40,651 nucleotides of DNA from an uncultured Bacteroidales bacterium (GTDB taxonomy: Bacteria; Bacteroidota; Bacteroidia; Bacteroidales; FEN-979): positions 1-40,651 of the forward strand of contig CAIYUC010000202.1 in assembly GCA_903929315.1 (NCBI GenBank), read 5' to 3'. The position numbers and the translations under genes were made by a program. The notes below the pieces were generated by a model. The model saw only the letters and a list, made by a program, of their open reading frames with translations. It had not been told where the DNA came from and did not search any database. This document shows, in pieces, positions 1 to 32,544 of the stretch (position 1 is its first letter; every line of letters begins with the position of its first letter).

Positions 1-97
1 CAAAGAGTTTTATGAAAATATTAAAGCAGGATCTTTATTATCTGTTTTCGCTCGGAATCTTTGAACCGAAAACATCCTGACTTAATCAGCAGACCCT
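1..97 (+). mobile_element. Right end of an insertion sequence (transposase C-terminus)
   Basis: The window opens inside a reading frame (bases 3-80, stop TGA at 78-80) whose last residues read KSFMKILKQ...LFSLGIFEPKTS. The same C-terminus, and the non-coding bases that follow up to CAGACCCT, recur without gaps at 38417-38513 with about 10 mismatches in 97 bases. Similarity stops after CAGACCCT in both copies, so that is probably the terminal end of the element. The other copy continues upstream into a transposase-like sequence, which is why I call this a transposase tail. The IS family is not identified. Confidence 0.6.
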
Positions 98-1883: not shown

Positions 1884-2057
1884 ATTTTATTGTTTTAGAA
1901 ATCTTTTCATTACCGATTTTTTCAAAAGCTAAAATATACGTCTGGAGGATTAATATTGATTGAATTTTTCCTTGCAATTATTTCAACATGTTAGAAAGTG
2001 TTATTCCGTTAGTTTTGAAAGTACAAAGTTTTGATTCATATACAAGACTACAAATTT

Positions 2058-2528
2058 CTATATACTGAAATCTGTCAAATCCTCCACATCTGCCATATCC
2101 GATAATAATTGAGTATAATTCCTCAAAACCTGCTGTATACTCATAAGTTCAGCTCGAAAGTCTTTACATTTTTGAGGAATTTTAAAGGCTCCTTCTGTAC
2201 TTTGCTGATGCCACTTTGTTGTAAAAGGTCGTAATACCTGGTTAAGAACAACAATAGCAATTTTTGTAAATTCAATACACTCCCTTCCATTTTCTTTAAT
2301 AATTTGTCTAGTTAAGGGGAAAAGCTCATATACACTTTCCAATGCTCTTTGCTCATTACCACTTTCATCGGGTATGTGCTGAGTCGTTGTACGTGTTATC
2401 AATTCAATATATAGTTCCCATGCAGCTTTTTTATCGGATTCTTTAAATGAAAATTCCATCTCAAGGAATTTTGCATTGATTTTCAGGCTTTCCATGTGCC
2501 ATTTTCCTAACCACTCTTTTAATTTCAT
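2058..2528 (-). CDS. Hypothetical 156-aa helical protein in the TIR module
   Basis: I do not recognise a named family. The protein is soluble, with no signal peptide or membrane segment, and appears mostly helical, with conserved-looking Trp and aromatic positions (WLGKWHMESLK, AAWELYIELITR, LRPFTTKWHQQS). It starts 12 bases after the ThsB-like TIR gene stops and precedes the TIR-ParA gene, so it is probably translated together with the TIR proteins. A role as a partner or regulator of one of the two TIR proteins is an inference from position only. The ATG start at 2528 is the only sensible one. Confidence 0.75.
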   Translation of the reverse strand: MKLKEWLGKWHMESLKINAKFLEMEFSFKESDKKAAWELYIELITRTTTQHIPDESGNEQRALESVYELFPLTRQIIKENGRECIEFTKIAIVVLNQVLRPFTTKWHQQSTEGAFKIPQKCKDFRAELMSIQQVLRNYTQLLSDMADVEDLTDFSI

Positions 2529-2540
2529 CTTATTTGATTA

Positions 2541-3242
2541 TTAGGGTTGCCATTGTGTTTGATCGTCAGACCGGTTATTCCTAAACATTGGATAGGAATT
2601 ATCAATTTTCATTTTATCCTTCCTCTCAAATGCTGCATTGATCCATGCCTGAATGGTATTAGTATTTTCAGTCCAAGGGTAAATATGCGCAAAGCCAGTT
2701 TGATGATTATAAAATAACCTTGGTGGAATTGTATATGGGAAGAAGGTATTCTCATCATTATTATAATGTGGATAAGTTGGAAGCATAATACCTATCAACC
2801 CGCATCTTGGATTTTTCTGAGTATTCTTGATGCTTGAACTTATCTCCCAATCAACATGTTTGCGTTTCCATGTTTCAGGGCCAATAAGTACCACGGTTAC
2901 TGTAGCTTCCGCAATAAAATTATCCCTTATCTGTTGCCTGATGGTTTCAGTAGGTATATTTGTTGGGATATCTCCGTCTCCAACAGATTTACTCACCATT
3001 TTTTCGGTTTTATCCACCATTAAAAACTCAAATCGCTCTTTCCAGTAATGACCACACTTGTAATAATAAACACAATTTAGATTGGGGTAAACTCTATTTC
3101 GACCGCAATTTCCATTACAGACATTGAAAGTAGTTTGAGACCCCCAAATGCCATTTACTATCTTTTTACCACAAAGCCGAACTGTATCTTCACATCCATG
3201 CTGAATACTGACGAATACTTTATGTCTATTTGTTTCTGCCAT
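2541..3242 (-). CDS. ThsB-like TIR-domain protein (DUF1863 / Thoeris TIR-like) with Cys-rich insertion
   Basis: The protein has the layout of the ThsB TIR-like family: an opening beta strand HKVFVSIQHG, a central GDGDIPTNIPTE..R..IRDNFI segment, the strand TVVLIGPETWKRKHVDWEI, and a later GIMLP...PPRL region ending in GFAHIYPW. E133 of DWEI is the usual conserved acid. In Thoeris, ThsB proteins sense phage and make an NAD-derived signal; whether this one does is inference. Between strand 1 and the GD motif there is an unusual insertion (about residues 24-66) with Cys at 24, 42, 46, 57 and 63, which could bind a metal. I prefer ATG at 3242 (233 aa) over an in-frame TTG three codons upstream. 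No ThsA (SIR2-SLOG) gene is nearby; the TIR-ParA membrane protein is the obvious candidate effector. Confidence 0.85.
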   Translation of the reverse strand: MAETNRHKVFVSIQHGCEDTVRLCGKKIVNGIWGSQTTFNVCNGNCGRNRVYPNLNCVYYYKCGHYWKERFEFLMVDKTEKMVSKSVGDGDIPTNIPTETIRQQIRDNFIAEATVTVVLIGPETWKRKHVDWEISSSIKNTQKNPRCGLIGIMLPTYPHYNNDENTFFPYTIPPRLFYNHQTGFAHIYPWTENTNTIQAWINAAFERKDKMKIDNSYPMFRNNRSDDQTQWQP

Positions 3243-3288
3243 GGTAATCAATATTTATCAACGATCTGACCAGTTATGCATTAATTTC

Positions 3289-19507: not shown

Positions 19508-21304
19508 TTAACTTGTTGATTTAGGCTTTTTTCTTTTCTCAAATTCCTCTTTGAATAAAGCAGGTCCAACGAAGTCCATTATTGGCGGTTGTTTAACAAT
19601 GCCTCGGTTTAAAAATAATCTATCAATGAAAAGGGCAAAAGGGATAAGTTTATTCATAAAATATTGTACTACTTCAGGAGTAGTGGTAAATTTTATTCCT
19701 TGATTGATCTGGGAGTGTCCGTGATAGGCATTAAGAACTTCATGAAATGGGAGGTTTTCAGATAAACCCACTTGATGATAAATGAGAGAATCAATATTGA
19801 CCACGACCAAAGGTTTGACATGATAAATAAATAAACCTTCTTCTTTTAAACGTTCAAGTTCCTCCTGAAACCAATAATTGATAAGAAAATTGAAGCCAGG
19901 TGCATCATACTGGTGGTCGTGGGTAATAAGTATTGGATAAATGGAAATTTCTTTGTAATTGTATTCAGTATCAACAGGAAATTCCTTCTTCAATATTCTT
20001 CGAATACTTGTGATTATTTGCATTACCGCTCCCGCTTTTTCTTTGCCATTAGGTAAATCTTGGTAATACAGCGTTTTAGCAAATTCTTCTTCGTATATAT
20101 GAAAGTTGAAAGAAACTTTTTTATCAGCCCTGATTAGAAAATCTTTGGATTCAAAAAGAAGGATATCCTTGCCCTTTCTTAGATAATAATCAGGTGCACC
20201 ATCCATTTTCATTTCGGCTAATGTTTTTCCGGAAAATCTAATACACTTTCCGGGGTAGATTATCTCTAATATATTATATAATAATATCTTTTCAGAGAAT
20301 TCATGACAATAAATTGATTTAAAACCTTGTATTTGTTGCCCGGATGGAAGTATGTTATTTACATCTCGAAGAAGAAAATAAGCACCTTTAAAAATCTTTT
20401 CTACTACAAACAAAGGGAAAATAACTCGGTAAACGCCATCTCTAACCTTGTAGAATGGCCTAGCCCTTAAAGTCAGAAAATCATTTTGGTCAAGTTCGTC
20501 ACTATCTTGAACAATTAATCTCTCAATAAAGGCACAACCTTTGCTGAAATTTTCATCATGTTTCACGACAATATCCGTCTGTACTTCTCTATCGTTTTGA
20601 ATAACAGATACTGTCAGTGGCAAAAGGTTTTTAAGATATTCTTGCCATGACAAACAATTGAAATGAGCTAAAAATGCATCCAATAATAGTTTTGTTTTTA
20701 AATTGCACTCTAAAAACTGAAAAAGATATGTTGCTTTAATCAATTGTGTTGTCCATATCTGATTAATATCATAATTTGTCTTATCGGATACTGGATAAGA
20801 CATACAAAACAAGATCATAGGAATCTTCAAGTCCCCCCTCAGTTCTTCAGTTGAGGAGAATGATAAACGTTGATTGTGAGTGAATTCAGAATTAAAAACC
20901 AAATAAGCTTTGAACATATTTCTTTCAAATTCTGCATGTGATTGTGCATCTCTTTGATCCCCTTTTTCAAAGAAGAATTCAAAAAGCTTCAAACTACTTT
21001 GAGGATTAGTAATGTTTATTTTTATTCCTGATCCTTCTATAATCCTAATTTTATCATAGATTTTATTTGCAAAGTCATTATTTTCTGGTCCAAAAATGGC
21101 TTGAAGAAATTCTATGTTGTCTTTGAATTTTGAGCCAAATGATTTGAAACTTAAAAAGCGAGCAGCTACTTTTAATATGACCTCTCTGTTGCCACCTTTC
21201 AAGTACCTATCAGGAGTTAATGGTTTTTCATTTGCAAAAGCAACCTGAAATTCCAATAGTTGCTCCATTGACATAAAGTTTGTTAAAGTGGAATTACTTG
21301 ACAT
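19508..21304 (-). CDS. Candidate PD-(D/E)xK nuclease-fold protein upstream of brxA
   Basis: A 598-aa soluble protein that I cannot place in a named family. Residues 369-387 (GAPDYYLRKGKDILLFESK) have the classic P-D-x12-E-x-K layout of PD-(D/E)xK nucleases, with D372, E385 and K387; an upstream acid such as E335 (YCHEFSEK) could complete the site. The part before residue 360 is mostly helical and the part after 450 contains alternating strands and helices (YPILITHDHQYD). It starts at ATG 21304 and ends 108 bases before brxA on the same strand. The location beside BREX suggests a defence role, possibly an independent nuclease system. Family membership is a by-eye motif call. Confidence 0.65.
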   Translation of the reverse strand: MSSNSTLTNFMSMEQLLEFQVAFANEKPLTPDRYLKGGNREVILKVAARFLSFKSFGSKFKDNIEFLQAIFGPENNDFANKIYDKIRIIEGSGIKINITNPQSSLKLFEFFFEKGDQRDAQSHAEFERNMFKAYLVFNSEFTHNQRLSFSSTEELRGDLKIPMILFCMSYPVSDKTNYDINQIWTTQLIKATYLFQFLECNLKTKLLLDAFLAHFNCLSWQEYLKNLLPLTVSVIQNDREVQTDIVVKHDENFSKGCAFIERLIVQDSDELDQNDFLTLRARPFYKVRDGVYRVIFPLFVVEKIFKGAYFLLRDVNNILPSGQQIQGFKSIYCHEFSEKILLYNILEIIYPGKCIRFSGKTLAEMKMDGAPDYYLRKGKDILLFESKDFLIRADKKVSFNFHIYEEEFAKTLYYQDLPNGKEKAGAVMQIITSIRRILKKEFPVDTEYNYKEISIYPILITHDHQYDAPGFNFLINYWFQEELERLKEEGLFIYHVKPLVVVNIDSLIYHQVGLSENLPFHEVLNAYHGHSQINQGIKFTTTPEVVQYFMNKLIPFALFIDRLFLNRGIVKQPPIMDFVGPALFKEEFEKRKKPKSTS

Positions 21305-21585: not shown

Positions 21586-22587
21586 TTATTTCTGCGTCAC
21601 CACGACTTTGCTTATTCCATTGATCTGAACCCTCTTTCTCTCTTGGGAAACAAGTAATCCGTATGCTTCCGGATGTAACTTTCTATATTCCTCTGTAGCT
21701 ACTTCACAGGCATGTTGTGTGTAAAATGGTCCAATGTAAACACAGTAATATTGAGCACCACTTAAAGAGGCATAGTCAGGGATCCATAAGTAACCTGTTG
21801 AATTACTATTTTTCCTGAGTTCGGTAGCTTTTGCTTTAGCTTGGTTCTCTGTTTTAACTGCAGCAGCGCTAATGATATAAAAATACCCAGTATTATGTTG
21901 GTTTACCTTTTGATTTGCATTAGGTTGGGATTTATTGTCAGGAATTGATGGAGAAGTTTTCGATGCATTTACCTGTTCATTTGAATTCCTGATTTCATTC
22001 AAGTTACCAGAAGAGGCATTGTTTGGAACAATTTTATTTACCTTCTTGCCAGGATTAAACACTCCACTGAAATATAATATTAATACTGTCAAAATAATTA
22101 CACTGGCGCTGATAATGCCTATCATTAGATTTTTTAAACTATTAACGGTAGTATTGGTATTGGGATGAATTTTATTTTCCTGGAAAACAGTATTTGAATA
22201 TTCAGATAAGGTAGGAGAATTCTCCTTAATCGGACTTTGCAAGAGTAGACCTGATGTGTAAATCGAAATTATCAAGTCATTAAAATTGGTTTTAAATTTT
22301 CCCCCAAGCGTTTTTAACAATTCTATTTCCCGGCCAGTATAACTTGCAAGTAAAGAGGAAGCAGATGTAACATTGACGGGGTCATATTTTGATAAAATTT
22401 CTTTTACCAGCCTTAGATAATCAATAGAAATATAATTCTCCAAGTGAAGCTTGTATTTCTCGGAAATTTTTGATAACAATTCAGCATCTTTGCCTTTATA
22501 TTTCTCAAGTATATTTGGAACAGTTGAAATCTTGTCGGGGTTAAAATCCCGGTAGATTTGTTCAATTATCTTTTTTATATCATCCAC
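21586..22587 (-). CDS. Single-pass protein: duplicated N-terminal helical repeat, TM, C-terminal SPOR domain
   Basis: Residues 1-110 contain two similar units (about 5-48 and 57-104) with the pattern Y-x-P-x-x-[IV]...L-x-x-Y-x-G...ELL...KF/KY. A proline- and Asn-rich spacer leads to one membrane helix (about 154-175, ending LYFSGVF), then a low-complexity linker and a SPOR-like domain (about 234-315, GYFYIISAAAVKTENQAKAK ... YYCVYIGPFYTQHAC). SPOR domains bind denuded peptidoglycan glycans, so the C-terminus should be periplasmic and the N-terminal repeats cytoplasmic. The start is GTG 22587, aligned with the starts of two paralogues upstream. It is the last gene of the nine-gene block. Confidence 0.85.
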   Translation of the reverse strand: MDDIKKIIEQIYRDFNPDKISTVPNILEKYKGKDAELLSKISEKYKLHLENYISIDYLRLVKEILSKYDPVNVTSASSLLASYTGREIELLKTLGGKFKTNFNDLIISIYTSGLLLQSPIKENSPTLSEYSNTVFQENKIHPNTNTTVNSLKNLMIGIISASVIILTVLILYFSGVFNPGKKVNKIVPNNASSGNLNEIRNSNEQVNASKTSPSIPDNKSQPNANQKVNQHNTGYFYIISAAAVKTENQAKAKATELRKNSNSTGYLWIPDYASLSGAQYYCVYIGPFYTQHACEVATEEYRKLHPEAYGLLVSQERKRVQINGISKVVVTQK

Positions 22588-22655
22588 AGCCTAATGAATT
22601 TATATAGCTAAAAAAGTAGGTTATAGTCTACCTCGTTTCAACATTTCGTAAAGTT

Positions 22656-22806
22656 CTACTCACAGATCACAACTTCAACCATATGATTATTTCCTTCGCA
22701 AGTTTGTATTAATGTCTCAAAAGATCTACCATGAATGGAAATGTCTACAAAGTCCGGGCAGTAATTACAAGTTTTAAAAAAAGTTGATTTTCCGTTTCCA
22801 GTTCCC
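22656..22806 (-). pseudogene. Broken extra copy of the Cys-containing beta domain
   Basis: Directly after the stop of the 351-aa gene, another frame reads GTGNGKSTFFKTCNYCPD...DISIHG and ends at TAG (22658-22656). This matches GNGNGKITIFKTCNDCQDVK.ISIDG in the C-terminal domain of the preceding gene. It lacks a start codon and stops about 35 residues after the CxxC motif, so it is a frameshifted, truncated tandem duplicate of the C-terminal module. It could have been a second domain of the same protein before the TAG and frameshift. Confidence 0.7.
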
Positions 22807-23862
22807 CTAAAGATTAGGATTTACATCATTGCCTTTCTTTATCTCTTGTAATAAACATTTTCCCTCTGGTACAGAAATCAAAATATCCCAACTTGTTCTA
22901 TTACTATCCTGGCCAGATAAATGATGCCGGCCTGACGAAAGAACTTTTGAGATTGTCCCATCAGCATCGCAGGAAGGAACACTTGTAGAGTTGAATGTTT
23001 GTGATAGAACGCCAATGTAATTGCCATCGATTGAAATTTTTACATCCTGACAATCATTGCAGGTTTTGAAAATAGTTATTTTACCGTTGCCATTTCCATA
23101 AGGATTTGCTCCTATAGTTTGCTGCGTTGCCAATTCATCTTGGGTTCCGTTTTTTACCTGATCTAATGTAGGAGGAGGATTTTGTGGGGCATTAGTTTGC
23201 TGCGTTGTTGATACTTCCCGGGTTTCGGTATTCATTGATTCTGGCGAAGGAGGAGGATTTTGAGGGTTATTCGTCGTTGGACTATTGACTGATGTTACGG
23301 CCGGTGACGAGTTATTGTTCTTCACAGGACCCGTCATCCCGGGTCGAAACGAACCACTAAAATAGAATATAGCCAAAACAACTATTACAACGCTGCAAGC
23401 AATGATACCTATCCTGAGTTTTTTAGGATTTCTTTTATCAGGGATCTCCCTTTTTTGTGATTCTATCTTCTCCGTAACCGCAGATGGTTTTTCACTTTCT
23501 GCAGCGGGTCCCTGATCAGATGATGGTGTTAAATAGATAGAAACGATGATATCATTGAAGCCGGTATTGAACTTTAAACCAAGGGTCGTAAGCAATTTCT
23601 TTTCCCGTCCAACATAACTTGCAAGTAAAGTGGAAGCAGATGAAACATTGACCGGATCATATTTTGTTAAAATTTTTTTTATTAACCTCAGATAATCAAC
23701 AGAAATGTAATCATCCAGGTGAATATTGTATTTCTGTGAAATTTTTGCTAACAATTCACCATCATTGTCTTTATATTTCTCAAGGATTCCCGGAACATTC
23801 GAAATCTTATCAGGATTGTGATCCCGATAGATTTTTTCAATGATCATTTTAATATTTTCCAT
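22807..23862 (-). CDS. Single-pass paralogue with small C-terminal Cys-containing beta domain
   Basis: A 351-aa paralogue of the SPOR and YARHG proteins. It has the same two-unit helical N-terminus (residues 1-110) and a membrane helix at about 150-169 (IGIIACSVVIVVLAIFYFSG). A Pro/Asn/Thr-rich linker contains two similar segments (TTQQTNAPQNPPPT and ATQQTIGANP). The C-terminal domain (about 258-345) has Cys268-x-x-Cys271, SIDGNYIG, then SCDADGTISKVLSSGRHHL and VPEGKC. The domain resembles small PEGA-like beta modules seen in Bacteroidota surface proteins, but I cannot name it. The ATG start at 23862 aligns with those of the paralogues. A damaged copy of the same domain lies just downstream. 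Confidence 0.82.
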   Translation of the reverse strand: MENIKMIIEKIYRDHNPDKISNVPGILEKYKDNDGELLAKISQKYNIHLDDYISVDYLRLIKKILTKYDPVNVSSASTLLASYVGREKKLLTTLGLKFNTGFNDIIVSIYLTPSSDQGPAAESEKPSAVTEKIESQKREIPDKRNPKKLRIGIIACSVVIVVLAIFYFSGSFRPGMTGPVKNNNSSPAVTSVNSPTTNNPQNPPPSPESMNTETREVSTTQQTNAPQNPPPTLDQVKNGTQDELATQQTIGANPYGNGNGKITIFKTCNDCQDVKISIDGNYIGVLSQTFNSTSVPSCDADGTISKVLSSGRHHLSGQDSNRTSWDILISVPEGKCLLQEIKKGNDVNPNL

Positions 23863-23970
23863 TGGGAAATAGATTTATTTAGAAATTGCATGTTTTTATA
23901 ACATGCAGGAAATTTCAAATCCCACATTCAAAATATAGATGAACAAAAAGGATAAGAGCAAAAAAAAAAC

Positions 23971-25293
23971 CTACTCATATTTTTTAATCAGGATTACATT
24001 TTGTTTTTCAATATTTGAGAGCATCAAAACAACATCATCATATTGACCATGATACCAGCTTTGAGCTGTGAAGTATGCTTTCATTTCTGGGGTCTTGAAG
24101 ATGAATCCATGTCTTGCAAAAATTTCATTTCTCATGATCTTCAAATCTTGTTTGCTCAATCCAGATAAATCAGAAATATCCACCAACCTTGTTGCCGTGA
24201 AAGGAAACCTACCTTGAGAACTGGTCGATAATTGGTCTCCTGAGCTCTCAATTTTATTATCTTGGCAAATTGTCATTTTAAGTATTCTTCCGTCTGTGTT
24301 TTTCATTTCTCCAAGGTAACAGTTCCCGTGTAAAGATAAATTGCAAATGGCAGTTATATTATTCCCGGTATATTCTGTCAATTGAATAGTTCCATTTTTA
24401 AAATCTTTTCCCTTTAAAATATACGTAATATTTGATCTTTGGGGATAATAATATGTTCCTTCAATTGTTCCATCAGAATTCCAAGTTAGATTATAAGAAG
24501 CGCCAAGTTTACCAACATTCCCTGTATATGCTTTTGTGACTACGGTTCCATTATTTGAATTTGTTGTGCCTGAATTCAATGATTTTGATGAAACTTTACC
24601 TTTTGAATTTGAAGTAGTAGCTTTACTTTTAGGATTTAAAGTTACGTTTGATGTTTTTTTTTGAGTATTGTTAGATGTTTTATCTATTGAATGGCTGCTC
24701 TCGCCGATCGTGCCTGAAGAAGTTGAGTTAGGACCAATACTATTTGCCGGCTTACTTGAATTAAAAACTCCACTGAAATATAATACTATAGCTACCAGAA
24801 TGATTAAACCAACTGCTATAATTCCTATTAACAGTTTTTTTGAACCTTTACCTGCCGGTATTGCATTCGGATACAAGACATGCTCCTGAGAAGGAACAGG
24901 AATTTTTTCAGAAACGATTGAAGGATTCTCTTGGGGCAAATATTGCAAGGAGAATCCTGATAAATAGATCAAAATGATCAGGTCATTAAAATTGCTTTTA
25001 AATTTCTCACTTAGCGATTTCAACAATTCTTTTTCACGGCCAGTATAACTTGCAAGTAAAGAGGAAGCAGTTGAAACATTGCCCGGATCATGTTTTGTTA
25101 AAATTTCTTTTACCAACCTTAGATAATCAATAGAAATGTAATCTTCAAGGTGTAGCTTGTATTTCTCGGAAATTTTTGATAACAACTCAGCATTTTTGCC
25201 TTTATATTTCTCAAGGATACTAGGAACATTCGAAATCTTATCAGGACTGTAATCCTTGTAGACTCTTTCAATTATCATTTTTATATCATTCAC
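23971..25293 (-). CDS. Single-pass paralogue with C-terminal YARHG domain
   Basis: A 440-aa protein with the shared N-terminal repeat pair (residues 1-110), a membrane helix at about 154-174 (LLIGIIAVGLIILVAIVLYF) and a long Ser/Thr/Asn/Lys-rich linker (about 180-255). A beta-rich middle (about 256-345, TYYYPQRSNITYILKGKDF) is followed by a YARHG domain (about 373-438: LSKQDLKIMRNEIFARHGFIF, YFTAQSWYHG, LSNIEKQNV). YARHG domains occur in extracellular parts of bacterial proteins and are probably involved in binding cell-wall or surface material. The start is GTG 25293, matching the paralogues. DNA of the first 350 bases is close to that of the SPOR gene, indicating recent duplication. Confidence 0.85.
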   Translation of the reverse strand: MNDIKMIIERVYKDYSPDKISNVPSILEKYKGKNAELLSKISEKYKLHLEDYISIDYLRLVKEILTKHDPGNVSTASSLLASYTGREKELLKSLSEKFKSNFNDLIILIYLSGFSLQYLPQENPSIVSEKIPVPSQEHVLYPNAIPAGKGSKKLLIGIIAVGLIILVAIVLYFSGVFNSSKPANSIGPNSTSSGTIGESSHSIDKTSNNTQKKTSNVTLNPKSKATTSNSKGKVSSKSLNSGTTNSNNGTVVTKAYTGNVGKLGASYNLTWNSDGTIEGTYYYPQRSNITYILKGKDFKNGTIQLTEYTGNNITAICNLSLHGNCYLGEMKNTDGRILKMTICQDNKIESSGDQLSTSSQGRFPFTATRLVDISDLSGLSKQDLKIMRNEIFARHGFIFKTPEMKAYFTAQSWYHGQYDDVVLMLSNIEKQNVILIKKYE

Positions 25294-25510
25294 GGCCTAA
25301 TGGAGCTATATAGGTGAAACATTGAGTCGCAATAATCTAATGAGGTTCTGACGTTGTTGTTTTGGTCTCTGGAACCAGACTTTTCCATCGAGTTGTTTTT
25401 ATCAAGCTGGTCAAGCCAAATACTTTAGGAATGGAAAACACCAGTGGTTAACATAAAACTATTTCCTGTGTATACAGTAAATACAAGATCAATAAGAGTT
25501 ATTCTATCAT

Positions 25511-26485
25511 CTAATTAAACTTCCCGGTAATATCTGAAATATCAAATTTCCCATTGATTTCCTGTACATCAATTCTTCCATGTAGAATGTTAAAGAAAAA
25601 GTCTCTGATTTTTTCAAAAGTTATCGTTACTGTTTCGCCTTTGTCATTAACACCCATGTCATAGTTTTTGAGTAACTGAGAACCTAAACTGGCAGCAGTA
25701 AGTAAGAAATGATTCTGAAATTTATCCATATCCAGAAGATCTGCAGCCAATACCTTGCCGACTACAGTGTAACTACGTATAGTTTTCTGCATTTCTTCAT
25801 TTGAAAGAGTGGTTTTAACTTCGTCGGTGTCAAGATTCATTTCAATTCTGCCGGACTTTTCCGATTGTACACTTCCTTTATAAAGAGAGCCAAGGTCTGC
25901 CAGACTCAAATTAAAAAATTTTGTTCCGGGTATAGTAATGATCTTTTCGGTTGAAAATGCACTTGGAAGTAATAGCCAGATCTGCTGTGCAGCCTTTACA
26001 GACGGGCTATTAAAAGTACCCATAACGGAATTGGTAACATCTATGTTTTGGGTTGCAAATACACCGCCGATAACAACACAATTTTGCAGGATGATTTCAT
26101 CAGCATAAATACTGCCTGCGACAAATGCATTATAAAGAGTAACACTTTTCGCATTAATATCCGAGTAGAACAATAAATTACAATTCAATGCCCGGGATAC
26201 AATTGAATTTGCGGAGCCTACACTTTTCCTAAAAGAGATATTCCCTTTTGCTTCACTATTTACATACATTTCCAGTTGTGTAAATACTGCTCCCTGAATT
26301 TCAGAATCACCCTGCTGTATTTCTAATTTGTGCGCATAAACAGCACCTTCAATAACTGAATTACCCTGTATAGTTATCGTTCTTTCAAGTTCGGCAATTT
26401 TTTCAGGTAAAATAGATCCTTTTACTAAATTGTCTTTTAGTTGTACATTGGTTTCATTGAAACGAAGTTCTTTTAATTCTTTCAT
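25511..26485 (-). CDS. Bactofilin-like / polymer-forming beta-repeat protein
   Basis: Residues about 25-190 are a run of short beta-strand turns with the bactofilin rhythm (TITIQGNSVIEGAVYAHKLE, IQQGDSEIQGAVFTQ, AFVAGSIYADEIILQNC, VVIGGVFATQNIDV). A C-terminal part without the repeat follows (about 195-324). Bactofilins polymerise into membrane-associated filaments; this protein is longer and more divergent, so polymer formation is inference. It has no signal peptide or membrane helix. It starts 12 bases after the 347-aa helical protein stops, inside the same colinear block, and is followed by a 217-base gap. Confidence 0.75.
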   Translation of the reverse strand: MKELKELRFNETNVQLKDNLVKGSILPEKIAELERTITIQGNSVIEGAVYAHKLEIQQGDSEIQGAVFTQLEMYVNSEAKGNISFRKSVGSANSIVSRALNCNLLFYSDINAKSVTLYNAFVAGSIYADEIILQNCVVIGGVFATQNIDVTNSVMGTFNSPSVKAAQQIWLLLPSAFSTEKIITIPGTKFFNLSLADLGSLYKGSVQSEKSGRIEMNLDTDEVKTTLSNEEMQKTIRSYTVVGKVLAADLLDMDKFQNHFLLTAASLGSQLLKNYDMGVNDKGETVTITFEKIRDFFFNILHGRIDVQEINGKFDISDITGKFN

Positions 26486-26497
26486 AGTATAATTATT

Positions 26498-27541
26498 TTA
26501 AACCTGTTGAAGATTAATAACGTTTATTGAACTAATATTTACAATCTTCTGAATCATTTCCCTTACACGTATAGCATGCTGTTCACTTTCAATTGACTTA
26601 CTGTTAAGTTCAGTATTAAAATACAAGACTATCCTTTTCTGATTGTCCACCGTAAGTTTATCCCAGCTGATTGAGTTTGATGAAAATTGTTCAATTAGTT
26701 TATTTTTTTGGATTTTATTATTAAGAACAGTTAGGTAATCAGTACTAAAAATAGTTTTATCAATTTGGTTTCCAAGATTTTTTGTTTCAAAAAAACAAAC
26801 AGGAGTAAATATTGAACAAGATACACTTTCATTAAGCATACTTTGTTGGATAGTAGTGCTTAGTTTTTTTTGTTGCTGGAGAAACAAATTTGCCTTATTT
26901 ATTGTATCTACTGCTCGTTTTTTTGCAATTGAAGCACTGATTTTTGATTGCAAATCACTGCTTTCTTTACCAAATATTCCAACGGTATTAACCAGGTCGT
27001 TATCTGACGTTCTCGTTTTTTGATTATCTGTTTCTTTCTTAAAGGCAAACGCAGGCTTGTCCAATTCAAAAATTCTATTTGATAATTCACTATTAAGGTC
27101 ACCAAAAATTTTTACATAACGCCCCGAGATTCTAATATAATCGCCCTCCATTTGCTTTTTCTTTGTAAGGCAAGCTTGAGCCAACTCTCTAATATGCATT
27201 AATCGTGCTTCTATGTTTTTTGAAAGTTCAGCAACCTGCTGACTGATTTCAGAACGAATATAACTGAAGAAACCTCCTATGATTGTATCAGCAACTTTCT
27301 TCGAGTTCGTCTCTTTTGAGACAATTTCCGCCGCTTCTGTTGCAACAACTGCTGTCGTTAGCAAATCTACATTATTACCACAATGTTGTACACTTTTATC
27401 GAAAGGGTTTGTATCAACATGTATATTAACGTCAACCGGAATATCAACAGTAACTGATGTACTTCCCCCACTATCAGATTTTGGATACGAAACGGATACT
27501 GTTTTAGAAACAGTTTCTCTATAACTCCTGGTGTAACTCAT
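26498..27541 (-). CDS. Helical protein, paralogue of the 304-aa neighbour (unknown function)
   Basis: A 347-aa protein of no named family. After a low-complexity Ser/Val/Thr N-terminus (residues 1-45) it shares with its upstream neighbour a helical region that includes GGFFSYIRSEISQQVAEL (89-106), MEGDYIRISGRYVKIFGDLN (131-150) and NRIFELDKP (155-163). It ends in a mixed region with VYFNTEL-like strands. No signal peptide or membrane helix is seen. The gene is 11 bases downstream of the 304-aa paralogue, so the two were probably generated by tandem duplication and may form a heteromeric coiled-coil unit. Confidence 0.75.
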   Translation of the reverse strand: MSYTRSYRETVSKTVSVSYPKSDSGGSTSVTVDIPVDVNIHVDTNPFDKSVQHCGNNVDLLTTAVVATEAAEIVSKETNSKKVADTIIGGFFSYIRSEISQQVAELSKNIEARLMHIRELAQACLTKKKQMEGDYIRISGRYVKIFGDLNSELSNRIFELDKPAFAFKKETDNQKTRTSDNDLVNTVGIFGKESSDLQSKISASIAKKRAVDTINKANLFLQQQKKLSTTIQQSMLNESVSCSIFTPVCFFETKNLGNQIDKTIFSTDYLTVLNNKIQKNKLIEQFSSNSISWDKLTVDNQKRIVLYFNTELNSKSIESEQHAIRVREMIQKIVNISSINVINLQQV

Positions 27542-27552
27542 ATTGTTTCGAT

Positions 27553-28467
27553 TTATAATGATTGATAGTTAGTTGAGTTAAACAGTTGCAAAGTCAAATC
27601 TTTTATCCTAGCTGATTTAGAAGAAGCCGAAACCAATTTGTTGAATTCAGTATTGATCTCTTGTGAAAGAGAAGTATTTAACGACCATGTCAATTGCGGG
27701 AAATTTGTGTATGTTGCATTTTTGATATCTGATTTGGCTGCAGAGGTCAAGTCCCCATCAGAAAAAACAATTTCGATATTCTTATGCTCCGTCCTATCCC
27801 GATTACACTCATAGATTGCAACGGGGATATAACATTTTCCAACTTTTATTATACTATTATCATTGATCAATATTTGATCGGTCAAATTTTTCTGAACATT
27901 CATCTCATGAATGAACGATTTCATGGAGTTAATAGCATTAAGGCCTCTTAGCTTGACATTTGAAGCAATTATCTTTTGACTTATTGATATTGATTCCAGT
28001 TGAGATATAGGAATAGTAGCAGTTAAATATTTTGTTCTATTTGAAACTTTATCTATTTCTTTACAAGCAAAATCAATGGTTGGTTTATCAAGTTCAAAAA
28101 CCCTGTTCTTCAGATTTACATTAAGACCATTAAAAAGTTTGATATATCTTCTGGCAATCATATTATAATCACGTTGCATCCGGTTTTTTATCCCCGTCAA
28201 TGCATTTTTTTGCTGAACCAATTGCATGATATTCGAATCAACTTCACTTTGCAATTTTGCCAGTTTCTGAGATATTTGAGAACGGATCAATGAATAAAAT
28301 CCTTTATTTACATTATTGCAAACGTGGTCGGCAGCTTTTCCCTCGGCAGCAATAACAGCTGTTTGCATTGCGACTACTGCACCGGTTGTCACATTGACAT
28401 GTTGGGAAACACTGCTTAATTCGTTAGCCATTGGCTGAGTATCGACAGTATAATTAAAAGTTGCCAT
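27553..28467 (-). CDS. Helical protein, paralogue of the 347-aa neighbour (unknown function)
   Basis: A 304-aa protein whose central helices match those of the next gene: KGFYSLIRSQISQKLAKLQ (55-73), MQRDYNMIARRYIKLFNGLN (97-116) and NRVFELDKP (121-129). No named family is recognised. It lacks a signal peptide and membrane helix and looks cytoplasmic. It lies between the coiled-coil membrane protein and its paralogue, all packed on the minus strand with short gaps, which suggests a stoichiometric complex. The start at ATG 28467 is clear. Confidence 0.75.
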   Translation of the reverse strand: MATFNYTVDTQPMANELSSVSQHVNVTTGAVVAMQTAVIAAEGKAADHVCNNVNKGFYSLIRSQISQKLAKLQSEVDSNIMQLVQQKNALTGIKNRMQRDYNMIARRYIKLFNGLNVNLKNRVFELDKPTIDFACKEIDKVSNRTKYLTATIPISQLESISISQKIIASNVKLRGLNAINSMKSFIHEMNVQKNLTDQILINDNSIIKVGKCYIPVAIYECNRDRTEHKNIEIVFSDGDLTSAAKSDIKNATYTNFPQLTWSLNTSLSQEINTEFNKLVSASSKSARIKDLTLQLFNSTNYQSL

Positions 28468-28514
28468 AATTTCTGCTTAAGTGTCAATTAATTTCTGTTA
28501 CTATTTCTCTCTGA

Positions 28515-30539
28515 TTATAAATCATCGTCGTCAACCTCTTCTTTATTTTTGGTATCCTCCGGTGCAGATTCGTCATCAACTTTATAATTTTCTTCAATGA
28601 TGATATTCTCTTCGGGAGGAATCGAATCATTTTTGGGATCAATATTACTTTCAATTATTTCATCGGCAATAATCTGGCTTTTATCAGATACTAGTTCTCC
28701 ATCTAATTCATTAAGCGCATTTTTTGCAATAGCAGGAAGATTCAGGGAAATATGTTCATAGGTTAAATTTTCAACACTTGGAACAGGTGGTATTTCAGAA
28801 ACTTTGGCAAAAAGCGGATTTACTGTAATCAAAGGTTTCCTTCTTTCGTCAAGTTCGTGTACCTCACTGGCTGCAACGGCGATATCCTTTGAGTTCCCGT
28901 CACGAAGGAGTGCATCGTAGTATTCAATATGCTCAAATTTTTCTGCTTTAAGATCAATGTCTTCCTTAAGACGTTCCATGTAGTTTTCAAAATCCAGCTG
29001 CACATTTTGAAATTCCTTTGATTGTAATTCAAAAGCCGCGAATACCTCAGCTGAATTATCATTGGCTGTCACAACAGTTGAATCTAATGAACCTCCGGAT
29101 TGTTGCATACTATCTTCTGTTTTCTTCAAAGAAGCCAGCGTATTATATGCTGCTACATAATCTCTTAAGCTGCCACGCATCAAATTAATCAAATCGGCAC
29201 TCTCAGCCCTGTTCCGTCCATAAAAATCTTCTGTATCCTGGTGCCATTTATTCAAATAATTTATTTTTTGGTCCTTAATATGATTGTAAATCTTCATTCT
29301 TTCTATACGGGTTTCATTCATCAAATTCTGAACCATCGGGGCAACAATTTCTTCATGAATCTGGTGTACTCCAAATGGGAAATTTGTTGAACTTCCATCT
29401 TCAGCAACCCAAGTATCTGATAGCAAGTTGTATTTTGCACGGGAACTTGCTTTTAACTGGAATGGAACATAATCCTGAACAGAATCTCCATAGTTAAAGT
29501 TTTCGTTTCGTATCCTCTCAATTTCAGCAGCTTCTAATGCAGGTGAATAATGATTATAAGGCGATTTTAATATCTTGTATAAGACCTTATTTGACTCAAA
29601 TACAATTTTATCAGTTGATGCAATTTTTAAAGCTGAAATTGCCTGGACAGAATTAGCCATTGTGACCATCAAGCCTTTTAAGACATCTTCAAACTGTTCT
29701 GTATTTCTTGACAATGAGTCTTTCAATTTATTTAACACCTGGAATTTTGAAATATCCTCATCATGTTTTTTTGTATCAAATACTTCGAATGTCGGGGCAC
29801 CTTTTGGCACCTCCGAAGTTGTATACTCTTTAATGAAATTCAGATAACTGCTCTCATTTGCTACGAGTGGTAAAGAGACAGAGGTAACATCCAAATCATC
29901 CATACAGAATGAGATTGTCCGTAATGATCTTTCAAGGTCACCGAAATAATCATGTTGATTCAATTGTTGCATGGAACGTGAGTATTGTTCAGTATCAATC
30001 TCTTCTATATCATTAGAACTTTCAACCAAAGGCGCTTCTGAGGAGAGTCTTTCCAAATCAGCGATTTTTTCAATTAACAAATCATTTTGCTTTGATAATT
30101 GAAGTTTAATTTCAGACTCTTCAACCATACCGGTATGATCAACGATAAAGCTTTTATTCTCATATTTAATTTGATCGGCAATCGGTACATAAGCTACACC
30201 CAATTTGCTTACTTTGTAATCTCTGAAGATCTCTTTTTGAAGTTTCTGAAATTCCCCAATCCTCTCCTCCAGATCATTTAACTTTTTTACGATCCCATTT
30301 TCTTTGATCATAAATATTATAAATGGAATGATCAATATACAAAGGAGCCATTTCCATAATTTGGCTTTCGATAGATCCTGATTAAGAACTGTTTTTTCTT
30401 CTTCAAGTTTGGCAATCTCTTTTTCAATTCGTTCTTCCTCCTGAACAATTTTTTCAGCCATTTGCTGGTAATAGTTAAATAATATCTTAGCCTGATCCTG
30501 CTCAATATTACTTGTTTCCGGAAAAATTTTACCTTTCAT
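28515..30539 (-). CDS. Large coiled-coil protein with one membrane helix (unknown function)
   Basis: I chose ATG 30539 (674 aa, MKGKIFPETS), which leaves a 22-base gap after the upstream gene; an in-frame TTG 96 bases further up would overlap that gene and is unlikely. Residues 25-60 are a Glu/Lys coiled coil (EEERIEKEIAKLEEEK). A membrane helix follows at about 62-78 (LWKWLLCILIIPFIIFMI) and then a further coiled coil (80-110). The remaining 550 residues are mainly helical, with an acidic tail ending EEVDDDDL. No named family is recognised. It probably anchors the SPFH/bactofilin assembly to the membrane; that is inference from layout and neighbours. Confidence 0.78.
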   Translation of the reverse strand: MKGKIFPETSNIEQDQAKILFNYYQQMAEKIVQEEERIEKEIAKLEEEKTVLNQDLSKAKLWKWLLCILIIPFIIFMIKENGIVKKLNDLEERIGEFQKLQKEIFRDYKVSKLGVAYVPIADQIKYENKSFIVDHTGMVEESEIKLQLSKQNDLLIEKIADLERLSSEAPLVESSNDIEEIDTEQYSRSMQQLNQHDYFGDLERSLRTISFCMDDLDVTSVSLPLVANESSYLNFIKEYTTSEVPKGAPTFEVFDTKKHDEDISKFQVLNKLKDSLSRNTEQFEDVLKGLMVTMANSVQAISALKIASTDKIVFESNKVLYKILKSPYNHYSPALEAAEIERIRNENFNYGDSVQDYVPFQLKASSRAKYNLLSDTWVAEDGSSTNFPFGVHQIHEEIVAPMVQNLMNETRIERMKIYNHIKDQKINYLNKWHQDTEDFYGRNRAESADLINLMRGSLRDYVAAYNTLASLKKTEDSMQQSGGSLDSTVVTANDNSAEVFAAFELQSKEFQNVQLDFENYMERLKEDIDLKAEKFEHIEYYDALLRDGNSKDIAVAASEVHELDERRKPLITVNPLFAKVSEIPPVPSVENLTYEHISLNLPAIAKNALNELDGELVSDKSQIIADEIIESNIDPKNDSIPPEENIIIEENYKVDDESAPEDTKNKEEVDDDDL

Positions 30540-30561
30540 ACTGATACTATTAAATTGATTA

Positions 30562-31272
30562 TTAATTGGAAAATATCTGTTTTCTTTCTTTGAAAGTTGC
30601 TTCACAATTTTTGATATTCTCAATAATTTTATCAAAATTATTGGGAATTTCAGATAAACAATCTTGCAAAACCTTAATATCCCTTAGAAATGAAGCTTCT
30701 AACGTTATTGCTTCCCTATTGTTACTGGGAGATATAAAACGCAGATTTTCAAATAATGCTGTCATTCGAACAGTTATGTCGGAAGGAATGTTTTCCATCT
30801 GATCCAGCTTTAACTTAACTTCTTTGGTTGAAGTTTTTATCTCATCAAGACGACTGCGATTCCCCGCTTCCTCACCAAACACCTCCCCGGCTTTTTGTGA
30901 TGAATAAAATACAAAATATAAGCCCACCAACAAAAGAAAAAAGAGAATACCATGAAAAATAATTTGGGCATTTACGTCAATTGGTCTTATAGTGTTAAAA
31001 ACCACCATAACTCCAATTGCTGAAACCGCATAAAGAAAAGTGAAAACCCATTTTAACCCGAGAGATCCAACCCCTTTTTGTGTTTTATCTTTAAGGTTGA
31101 TCATTGGAATGAATTTTTCAACAAACCAAAGGAGATAGATGATAGAAGACACGATGATATTTAAAACAAGAATATTTGTGGTTAAATTTCTCCCAAAGTA
31201 TAAAAAACTTACTATTATCAATGCTTCTCCTAATAGAATAAGGAAAATCGAAAATATTTTTTTTGTATTCAT
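30562..31272 (-). CDS. Four-helix membrane protein with cytoplasmic helical tail (unknown function)
   Basis: A 236-aa protein with four predicted membrane helices at about 7-26, 32-51, 73-94 and 102-123, then a soluble helical tail (about 125-236) with coiled-coil-like stretches (RLDEIKTSTKEVKLKLDQME). There is no cleaved signal peptide. It lies 18 bases after the SPFH-protein gene and just before the coiled-coil membrane protein, so these three probably form the membrane part of one complex. No named family is recognised. Confidence 0.75.
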   Translation of the reverse strand: MNTKKIFSIFLILLGEALIIVSFLYFGRNLTTNILVLNIIVSSIIYLLWFVEKFIPMINLKDKTQKGVGSLGLKWVFTFLYAVSAIGVMVVFNTIRPIDVNAQIIFHGILFFLLLVGLYFVFYSSQKAGEVFGEEAGNRSRLDEIKTSTKEVKLKLDQMENIPSDITVRMTALFENLRFISPSNNREAITLEASFLRDIKVLQDCLSEIPNNFDKIIENIKNCEATFKERKQIFSN

Positions 31273-31290
31273 AAATAAGATATTTTAATG

Positions 31291-32544
31291 CTATGAATTT
31301 TTTTGGCCGCATTTTGGACAGAATTTAACATTTGGAGTTAAAGGTGTGCCACATCGTGAACATTTGCCTTCTGAAACAGGTTTGCCACAGTTACCGCAAA
31401 ATGCACTTCCTGCTGCTATTGGCGAATTGCAATTCGGGCAGAAAATTTGCTCCATCATCAATTGCTGGCCGCAACTCACACAACGCTTAGCATTTTTATC
31501 ATTATCGGTCCCACATTTCGGACAAGGACAATATTCATCACCACAAAAGGGGCAGAACTTTAAATTACTTGCAAATTTTTTAGAACAATTGGAACAGTAA
31601 ACTTCTCTTACAGGAGCAACCGGTTGTTGATTCCCACCTGGTGAACCTGGGTTACTTTGGTTGAATGTGGGTTGATTATATTGTGGTTGCATTATACCTC
31701 CCGATGCTCCCGATCCACCCATGAAATTCGCGGCTACAACAGCTCCCAAAAGTCCTCCACTCCCGCCGGCCATTCCTTCAACGGCATCTTTTGCTACTTC
31801 AAAAGCCTGTGATTGTTGCCATGTATATCCACCAATTGCTTGAGCACTTTGCCTTGAAATGGCTTCAAGAATACGTTTACCAACATCTGTTGAACCATCT
31901 ACCTGAATGCTGGTAATATAGAATGCAGTCAATTCAAATCCTATATTTTCCCAGAAAGGAAGCATAATTGAACGTAAGTGTTCTGAAATACTATCGAGAT
32001 GAGCAGAAATTTGTTTTATACCAATTCTGTTTTTAATCATAAATTGCATCAACGTCGATTTTGTCTTTGTAGAGAATTCTCCAAAAAACTGATCTGTCAA
32101 ATTTTGTTGGTCAAAAGAGGTCTTTGTGCCAACAATTTTTATTAAGAATCGCTCTGCATCAGTGATTTTCAAACCGTATCTGCCATTGGCTACCAGAGGG
32201 ATGCCTGTATTATAATCGGCATCTTGTATGTCCATCCTGTCAATATTCCAGTCAATATTATAAGGCTGGAGTTTGTTTACAAACCAAACCTCTGCTGTAA
32301 ATGGGTTTTTACCCCCAAAAGGTAATCCATACAATGTTCTGAGTACTGGAAGATTTTCCGTATTAAGAGTGTGCTTACCGGGTCCGAATTTCCCGACAAT
32401 TTGTCCCTTTGAAAATAAAATCGCCTCTTGTGATTCCTGCACAATAAGTTGTGTATAAGTGCTAAGATTAGTTTCAGGAAATTTATAGGCATATATTGTC
32501 TGATTTCCCTGAGGCATCCATTTTACTAAATCAATTATTGCCAT
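31291..32544 (-). CDS. SPFH (YdjI-like) protein with C-terminal zinc-ribbon array
   Basis: ATG 32544 gives 417 aa starting MAIIDLVKW, the typical YdjI-like start; an in-frame TTG 54 bases upstream is not needed. Residues about 20-240 match the SPFH family often misnamed virion core protein (QLIVQESQEAILFSKGQIVG, FGPGKHTLNTENLP, LPFGGKNPFTAEVWFVNK). A Gly-rich linker (about 255-310) leads to a tail with at least eight CxxC knuckles between 317 and 412, enough for four zinc ribbons. SPFH proteins form ring or cage scaffolds on membranes; B. subtilis YdjI acts with membrane partners. It heads the minus-strand block of region B and probably recruits the downstream products. SPFH and zinc ribbons are firm, function is inferred. 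Confidence 0.93.
   Translation of the reverse strand: MAIIDLVKWMPQGNQTIYAYKFPETNLSTYTQLIVQESQEAILFSKGQIVGKFGPGKHTLNTENLPVLRTLYGLPFGGKNPFTAEVWFVNKLQPYNIDWNIDRMDIQDADYNTGIPLVANGRYGLKITDAERFLIKIVGTKTSFDQQNLTDQFFGEFSTKTKSTLMQFMIKNRIGIKQISAHLDSISEHLRSIMLPFWENIGFELTAFYITSIQVDGSTDVGKRILEAISRQSAQAIGGYTWQQSQAFEVAKDAVEGMAGGSGGLLGAVVAANFMGGSGASGGIMQPQYNQPTFNQSNPGSPGGNQQPVAPVREVYCSNCSKKFASNLKFCPFCGDEYCPCPKCGTDNDKNAKRCVSCGQQLMMEQIFCPNCNSPIAAGSAFCGNCGKPVSEGKCSRCGTPLTPNVKFCPKCGQKNS

Follow-up and report, generated by a model that had tools for sequence, protein, structure and literature searches.

What kind of system is encoded by nine consecutive genes on the minus strand of a contig from an uncultured Bacteroidales bacterium (GCA_903929315.1, contig CAIYUC010000202.1), where a gene for an SPFH protein with zinc ribbons leads a series of genes for membrane, helical, bactofilin-like and single-pass proteins? 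The window considered here is that one whole contig, 40651 bases long, and an initial annotation had taken the nine genes for a single unnamed operon, with swappable exported domains, that might sense or organise the envelope or serve in defence. All nine open reading frames (ORFs) are confirmed, and the real entity is one conserved six-gene operon accompanied by three local accessory genes. The core runs on the minus strand from the SPFH gene through a four-transmembrane protein (4TM), a coiled-coil protein (CC) and two paralogous helical proteins (helA and helB) to the bactofilin-like protein, with gaps of 11–47 bp between genes as calculated from the coordinates, and the three single-pass paralogues (W1 to W3) lie downstream of it at a spacing of 108–219 bp. 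Judging from sequence and predicted topology, we give a probability of about 45% to the reading that this is a transferable operon for a sub-membrane scaffold for swappable envelope sensors.

The evidence for the operon itself comes from the conservation of gene order. A pattern scan of a species-genome collection with the CC alignment gave 83 relatives, the best 80 of which were compared as loci; seven of the 80 repeat places from the order-wide genome search and near-identical pairs occur among them, so the number of independent events is below 80. Within each locus helA and helB were told apart by gene order, since their profiles cross-match. All six core genes stand in the same order in 65 of the 80 loci (some with end genes cut): 60 have the plain series, four carry an additional short zinc-ribbon gene and one has split genes. 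A further nine loci are cut at contig ends and are consistent with the order, five have CC, the two helical genes and the bactofilin-like gene alone despite 5–9 kb of upstream sequence, one has 4TM with no recognised SPFH gene, and a shuffled order occurs in none of the 80. Because the order is kept in 65 of 80 loci and dN/dS, the ratio of nonsynonymous to synonymous substitution rates (Nei-Gojobori, seven locus pairs), is at most 0.42 wherever dS exceeds 0.1, the arrangement is more than chance, and the core genes are, by the same substitution counts, evidently under purifying selection. The annotation had staked its claim of a new system on these neighbours being conserved together outside the one strain, and they are, across genera and phyla.

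The operon is rare but widely scattered. A CC match occurs in 8 of the order's 393 genomes, spread over 8 families, and every one of these has the ordered set (one SPFH gene is cut by the contig start). helA matches none of the 36 other genomes in the genus and family of the window and, in a sample of 395 genomes of the phylum, occurs in its own genome only. By their record titles the loci belong mainly to Bacteroidota, with others from Clostridia, Lachnospiraceae, Oscillospiraceae, Treponema, Fibrobacter and one metagenome-assembled genome called Ignavibacteriae. The bactofilin-like profile matches 3 of 247 genomes in the phylum of a Treponema record and 1 of 391 in the class of a Clostridia record, both counts including the centre genome, and the Treponema-phylum sample contributed two further loci with all six genes in order. 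There were no matches in plasmids for helA, CC or the bactofilin-like protein, in phages for helA, or in viral contigs for CC.

Table 1. The six core genes and three accessory genes, in order of transcription, with window coordinates and the main basis for each description.
Gene	Description	Coordinates	Strand	Basis
SPFH	SPFH protein (Band_7_1), C-terminal zinc-ribbon tail, no transmembrane segment found, YdjI-like architecture	31291..32544	-	Pfam PF13421, 123.9 bits, plus zinc ribbon families; first operon gene in other loci
4TM	Four-transmembrane membrane protein with soluble tail, motif RY-SPS...A..LE and terminal RK	30562..31272	-	Hydropathy scan; 33-row family alignment
CC	Coiled-coil protein, 674 aa, N-terminal helical hairpin, one hydrophobic segment, variable tail	28515..30539	-	Alignments, model
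helA	Long-helix protein, 304 aa	27553..28467	-	57-row alignment, model
helB	Paralogue of helA, 347 aa	26498..27541	-	hhalign
Bactofilin-like	Bactofilin-like protein, possible beta-solenoid, 324 aa	25511..26485	-	Alignment; sub-threshold bactofilin match
W3	Accessory single-pass protein: duplicated N-terminal domain, transmembrane segment, YARHG domain	23971..25293	-	YARHG 81.9 bits; transmembrane segment 154-172; N-terminal domain common to W1 and W2
W2	Accessory single-pass protein with Cys-containing C-terminal domain	22807..23862	-	Transmembrane segment 151-169; no convincing Pfam domain; N-terminal domain 70% identical to that of W1
W1	Accessory single-pass protein with SPOR-like C-terminal domain	21586..22587	-	SPOR 20.8 bits against a cut-off of 21; transmembrane segment 148-166

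The mechanical ORF list placed the start of SPFH at a TTG (32598) and gave CC as 28515-30635, also from a TTG; for SPFH we use the ATG at 32544, as the annotation had done. A promoter scan returned 57 sites against 47.1 (standard deviation 6.3) in shuffles and a terminator scan 6 against 6.8, and neither was used. Rfam at gathering scores finds nothing in the window and one tRNA in six loci.

The spread of the operon fits transfer of the core between lineages as a unit, a reading based on identity correlations without a tree. Across eight genomes (28 non-independent pairs) the identities of the bactofilin-like protein, helA and CC rise and fall together (Spearman 0.86–0.94), but hardly with those of RpoB (0.25–0.27, not significant), and because the core genes covary in this way such transfer fits them. 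For example, genomes G494 and G528 are 74% identical in RpoB and 87% in the bactofilin-like protein, the figures for G494 and G792 being 80% and 61%. A comparison of loci L041 and L077 further gives a dS of 0.23–0.26 in SPFH and 4TM and of at most 0.033 from CC to the bactofilin-like gene, and a recombination boundary between 4TM and CC is likely in this pair.

The flanks of the operon in some genomes suggest a vehicle. About 285 bp on the 5′ side are conserved at 77–92% in L022, L026, L027, L041 and L077, with a common start, and parts of them in L030, L032 and L070. On the 3′ side the conserved stretch (82–95%) is about 350 bp long in L022, L041 and L077 and shorter, at about 230 bp, in L027; conservation is lower in L030 and L045 and covers just 41 bp in L026. 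In L022, L027, L041 and L077 the 3′ end of the operon is a 132-nt attC-like hairpin, which starts ..TAAC and ends CCGTT., and whose first bases, by eye, mirror the 5′ start of the same cassette in reverse complement. Nine such sites can be aligned over 27 pairs, 16 of which have compensatory changes. A covariance model, built partly from the sites of those four operons, which match by construction, identifies 15 same-strand sites within 53 kb of the Bacteroidales bacterium CF chromosome (G649, a genome in the same order as that of the window), 10 of them unused in building it, and no further site in the rest of the 400 kb searched there; two weak opposite-strand matches, one each in CF and L022, come from reading those palindromes in reverse.

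The CF array spans loci L168 to L171 (G649:C1 2,251,064-2,307,512, including the recombinase), and within it the operon is one cassette of about 7.9 kb, from 2,270,725 to the hairpin at 2,262,856-2,262,987, with what looks by eye like an IS21-like insertion upstream. A tyrosine recombinase (2,306,646-2,307,512) lies 2.3 kb past the last site with one ORF between; this recombinase, the only one aligned, lacks the additional residues by which the two aligned parts of IntI4 are separated, and its alignment to Xer proteins is continuous. Because it is without the IntI-specific insertion we call the array integron-like. There are three attC-like sites in L077 and four in the G494 contig, and in L027 a recombinase 375 bp before SPFH has XerA as its best match and IntI4 as its third. 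The hairpin stands at the operon end in 4 of the 80 loci, not all of which reach far enough to show one, and none was found in the window, so it is in some genomes that an integron-like array appears to carry the operon as a cassette. Immediately ahead of the CF cassette (L169, upstream of 2,270,725) the sequence resembles by eye a hairpin-like site beside the recombinase (L171 5857-5943), which is possibly the first site of the array.

The proteins themselves offer few relatives to argue from. SPFH is a clear member of its family, its Band_7_1 score far exceeding the cut-off of 24, and Pfam adds several zinc ribbons; against PDB profiles it gives zinc-ribbon matches only. A hydropathy scan predicts four transmembrane segments in 4TM, one hydrophobic segment in CC, lying in a stretch that reads as hydrophobic in eight aligned rows, one segment in each of W1 to W3, and none in SPFH, helA, helB or the bactofilin-like protein. 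Pfam finds nothing convincing in 4TM, CC, helA, helB or W2 of the window, every NCBIfam match to the nine proteins is far under its cut-off, and PADLOC has no match to any of them at E <= 0.1. The wider families are similar: no Pfam family among those listed matches more than 4 of the 33 members of the 4TM family, and among the top 25 families listed there is none consistent across members of CC, helA or 4TM, the tail of CC varying to include zinc ribbons in 2 of 50 members and an L12 domain in 1 of 50. Neither the nine window proteins nor the members of the CC, helA, 4TM and bactofilin-like families have, in the same searches, a convincing enzyme domain. CC, helA, helB and the bactofilin-like protein thus appear to be families without clear curated relatives in the libraries searched.

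Structure adds mainly shape. helA and helB are clearly paralogous (hhalign probability 100, E 5.7e-58). AlphaFold models helA (predicted local distance difference test score, pLDDT, 78.5; predicted template modelling score, pTM, 0.28) as one long helix (residues 11-142, about 130 in all), another helix and, at the C-terminus, an alpha/beta part, and CC (pLDDT 68.5, pTM 0.34) as a hairpin followed by mixed and helical parts. We looked for a PspA-like or other known fold in both models and rejected this, since Foldseek has no match at E <= 0.001 and the structural rows show generic coiled coils or else short fragments, among which a missing family excludes nothing. PDB profile searches return nothing for helA or the bactofilin-like protein and three weak matches for CC (E 0.66–0.75).

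Of four core proteins whose alignments were compared, the bactofilin-like one is the best conserved, its 8 rows giving a mean column identity of 81%. Its match to bactofilin PF04519 reaches 19.6 bits, under the curated cut-off of 27.9, and covers model positions 46-90 of 98 only; of 41 family members, 27 reach E <= 0.1, the best at 8.2e-6, and a profile comparison with bactofilins, drawn from 10 of 30 bactofilin loci in related genomes, gives a probability of 0.7%. The host genome carries another bactofilin elsewhere that scores above the cut-off. The identity proposed by the annotation is therefore only weakly upheld by these scores: membership of the family is weak, and the 324-aa protein would be at best a distant bactofilin.

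The three single-pass genes tell a different story from the core. The N-terminal module of W1 to W3 is an internal duplication with a repeat of about 45 residues, which outside its own genome is weakly matched in 3 of the order's 392 other genomes. One of these matches is credible (L155 229-1638, in G708 of another genus): by eye it has a single copy of the repeat and a hydrophobic segment, and its end is SPOR-like. The other two appear unrelated. In G708 there is no core gene in 3 kb around the L155 protein and no CC match in the order-wide search. A viral scan for the domain was empty and a PDB profile search gave nothing below E 0.16. With relatives of W1 to W3 not found in seven non-window loci, except for a YARHG protein in L005, and an N-terminal domain nearly unique to the genome, we reject the nine-gene unit: six of the genes are conserved, but the other three are local.

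Their plan is shared more widely, the N-terminal module differing. In other loci, gene runs beside the core include single-pass proteins whose N-terminal module is a double CxxC or GYF, and among 10 such neighbours scanned for domains (one without a match) we find GldM domains 1 to 4, YARHG, SH3_3, WG repeats, L12 before the transmembrane segment, and GYF_2 with FGE. Because single-pass proteins with a varying domain recur beside the core, the swappable exported domains of the annotation are right as a wider pattern, but they lie outside the invariant set. An N-terminal double CxxC with a transmembrane segment occurs in 16 of 570 flank proteins of at least 120 aa, namely in 9 of the 57 within 150 bp of the core (8 loci) against 7 of the 513 farther away, a difference whose Fisher p of 3.6e-6 is inflated by counting related loci (L071, L072, L074 and L080) as independent; one adjacent L043 protein was counted as farther because an extra small match widened the core, which works against the adjacency claim. 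Two of these neighbours deserve mention on their own. A protein beside the operon in L028 (5090-6805) combines a double-CxxC N-terminus, a transmembrane segment and all four GldM domains, and is a possible GldM paralogue recruited to another membrane complex, and one beside the core in L096 (14239-15081) has a zinc ribbon, a ribosomal L12 C-terminal domain and a transmembrane segment.

How might such a set work? In the scaffold that we favour, which would lie on the inner face of the cytoplasmic membrane, the soluble SPFH protein would be held at the membrane by 4TM, much as YdjI is by YdjG/YdjH in Bacillus subtilis, where the SPFH protein is predicted to have no membrane anchor, carries a zinc-finger motif and needs YdjG/YdjH for recruitment to the membrane, according to PMC8581546. 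CC, helA and helB would be rod-shaped, the bactofilin-like protein would act as a solenoid hub or as a polymer, and the four would build a corset. The accessory proteins would keep their N-terminal module (zinc ribbon, GYF or the duplicated helical-looking domain) in the cytosol and export the varying C-terminal domain, and envelope sensors might dock through the zinc ribbons found on the SPFH tail, the tails of some CC proteins and single-pass proteins, so that the scaffold organises the envelope or reports on it. The operon would spread as a unit, in some genomes as an integron-like cassette. The pairing of scaffold and envelope sensing in the annotation was thus right in spirit, with the function still a matter of prediction.

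Several observations weigh against this scaffold. Five loci have neither SPFH nor 4TM, so SPFH would be inessential to the activity of the core. CC, helA and 4TM are without any convincing match, and because of this the scaffold role leans on SPFH, on the solenoid guess and on shape. Both models have a low pTM, and the probability in the bactofilin profile comparison is low. The adjacency of double-CxxC proteins draws part of its significance from related loci, and accessory proteins stand directly beside the core in a minority of loci (8 of 80 on a strict count).

The same genes could be read otherwise. In membrane repair of the phage shock protein (PSP) type, helA/helB or CC would be the helical proteins that SPFH brings in, and they would remodel the membrane in the manner of PspA in pspA-ydjGHI. 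An SPFH protein with zinc ribbons and no transmembrane segment beside an integral partner does parallel YdjI and YdjG/H, operons that pair Band-7 with PspA are known (PMC11237479), and one PspA fragment (4whe, Z 8.8) is among the structural rows for the CC hairpin. That row ties with many unrelated coiled-coil hairpins, no window protein matches PspA_IM30 at E <= 1, the helA model consists of one very long helix, a second helix and an alpha/beta part, and the operon is without a regulator gene, which together leave this explanation rather doubtful. A machine for secretion, gliding or surface anchoring that has the core as its platform and GldM-like and TonB-like accessory proteins as parts for force or anchorage would account for the L028 protein and for a similar one in L021, 925 bp away, that by eye ends in a TonB C-terminal domain, and bactofilins act as scaffolds elsewhere. 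Both proteins are single instances, and the core is also present in records titled Clostridia, which as a rule are without an outer membrane, making such a machine quite unlikely. More improbable still is a compartment or polymer in the cytosol that serves storage or metabolism, with SPFH as a merely optional tether: the five loci with the last four core genes alone agree with it, but the CC protein of the window has a hydrophobic segment, and no gene for an enzyme or cargo constantly accompanies the core.

A defence role was suggested by the position of the operon directly upstream of a defence island. Beyond W1 to W3 the window holds a 598-aa protein and then BrxA, BrxB, BrxC, an Eco57I-type methylase, AlbA/SLFN, PglZ, BrxL and TIR proteins, and an undescribed anti-phage system might also be patchily distributed and probably transferred, as the core is. 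The adjacency to BREX is seen in this window only, among the loci read, and the commonest flank family occurs in 8 of 80 loci. PADLOC on 125 neighbour proteins (generally, for either flank, the closest ORF that reaches 120 aa, some spurious- or duplicate-looking ORFs being skipped, without a control set) gives matches including AbiEi, ThsB, restriction and one BREX-helicase model, with each listed family (the first 25 of 32 and of 34) matching at most 2. A weak enrichment of defence genes beside the core is thus conceivable, but by eye the neighbours in the loci of the order and of the Treponema phylum are mostly ordinary metabolic, transport and regulatory genes. The core has no known defence or effector domain by PADLOC or Pfam, and no convincing nuclease, NTPase or toxin domain. 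We therefore rank a defence system low, as distinctly improbable, and the BREX island beside the operon looks incidental. One locus that speaks for defence is from Treponema UBA3649 (L098 11829-17583, L145 3830-17174), where the four-gene core is followed by TerD with vWA, tubulin-like and Hsp70-like genes by eye, a single instance.

Two observations concern the island itself. The 598-aa protein that heads the BREX cluster (19508-21304) is without a match in Pfam (E <= 0.01) or in NCBIfam and PADLOC (both E <= 0.1), and by eye its PDYYL...LLFESKD stretch resembles a PD-(D/E)XK nuclease. Past BrxL, at 96-3251, lie a ThsB-type TIR protein and a TIR domain fused to a ParA/CobQ-like ATPase domain.

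Returning to the sub-membrane scaffold, a more specific version is that the operon encodes an unrecognised transferable inner-membrane corset of four invariant families, including a polymerising beta-solenoid, usually joined by SPFH and 4TM, which takes up lineage-specific sensors through their cytosolic modules and in some Bacteroidota travels as a giant six-gene integron-like cassette run by a Xer-type recombinase; this we put forward tentatively, as an idea that could well be wrong. Whatever its function, a strictly collinear operon common to Bacteroidota, Clostridia, Treponema and Fibrobacter records, selected and apparently transferred as a unit, points to a real, unstudied cell machine, and four of its six core proteins are outside any curated family found. 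Were the scaffold confirmed, orphan proteins with zinc ribbons, a transmembrane segment and an exported domain would gain a physical partner, and SPFH-based membrane organisation would become testable in anaerobic gut and rumen bacteria. Were the cassette confirmed, a complete six-gene machine, about 7.9 kb long, would be shown to be within reach of an integron-like system; one published cassette finder allows at most 4 kb from site to site (PMC7370490), little more than half that length.

As the annotation supposed, no named system matches: in literature on SPFH, stomatin or flotillin with bactofilin, on SPFH with zinc ribbon and PspA, and on related sets, seen in part and with subscription journals thinly covered, we found no description of the gene set. 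Its nearest likeness is to pspA-ydjGHI of Bacillus subtilis, which has an SPFH protein with a C-terminal zinc ribbon or finger and no transmembrane segment and an integral-membrane partner in the operon. Here, unlike there, no PspA/IM30 (ESCRT-III) protein can be recognised in the nine window proteins and no TPM or YpeB-like domain was found; 4TM, CC, helA, helB and the bactofilin-like protein stand instead, in another gene order. To bactofilins (PF04519) the 324-aa protein is tied by the matches across its family and set apart by its sub-threshold score and the profile comparison. With integron cassettes the arrays share, by sequence and covariation, an attC-type hairpin with paired AAC/GTT ends and covarying arms, a same-strand array and a tyrosine recombinase near one end, and they differ in the recombinase, which is without the extra stretch of IntI4, in the size and six genes of the cassette, and in being seen in few loci, the window not among them. 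Finally, one L028 accessory protein has the zinc ribbon, transmembrane segment and YARHG domain of a known class of proteins, and W3 has the latter two with another N-terminal module. PMC3355149 (2012) describes YARHG as a hypothesised peptidoglycan binder, often fused to zinc ribbons and a transmembrane segment, and proposes a membrane-tethered transcription factor; what we propose here is that such a protein may be a partner of the scaffold.

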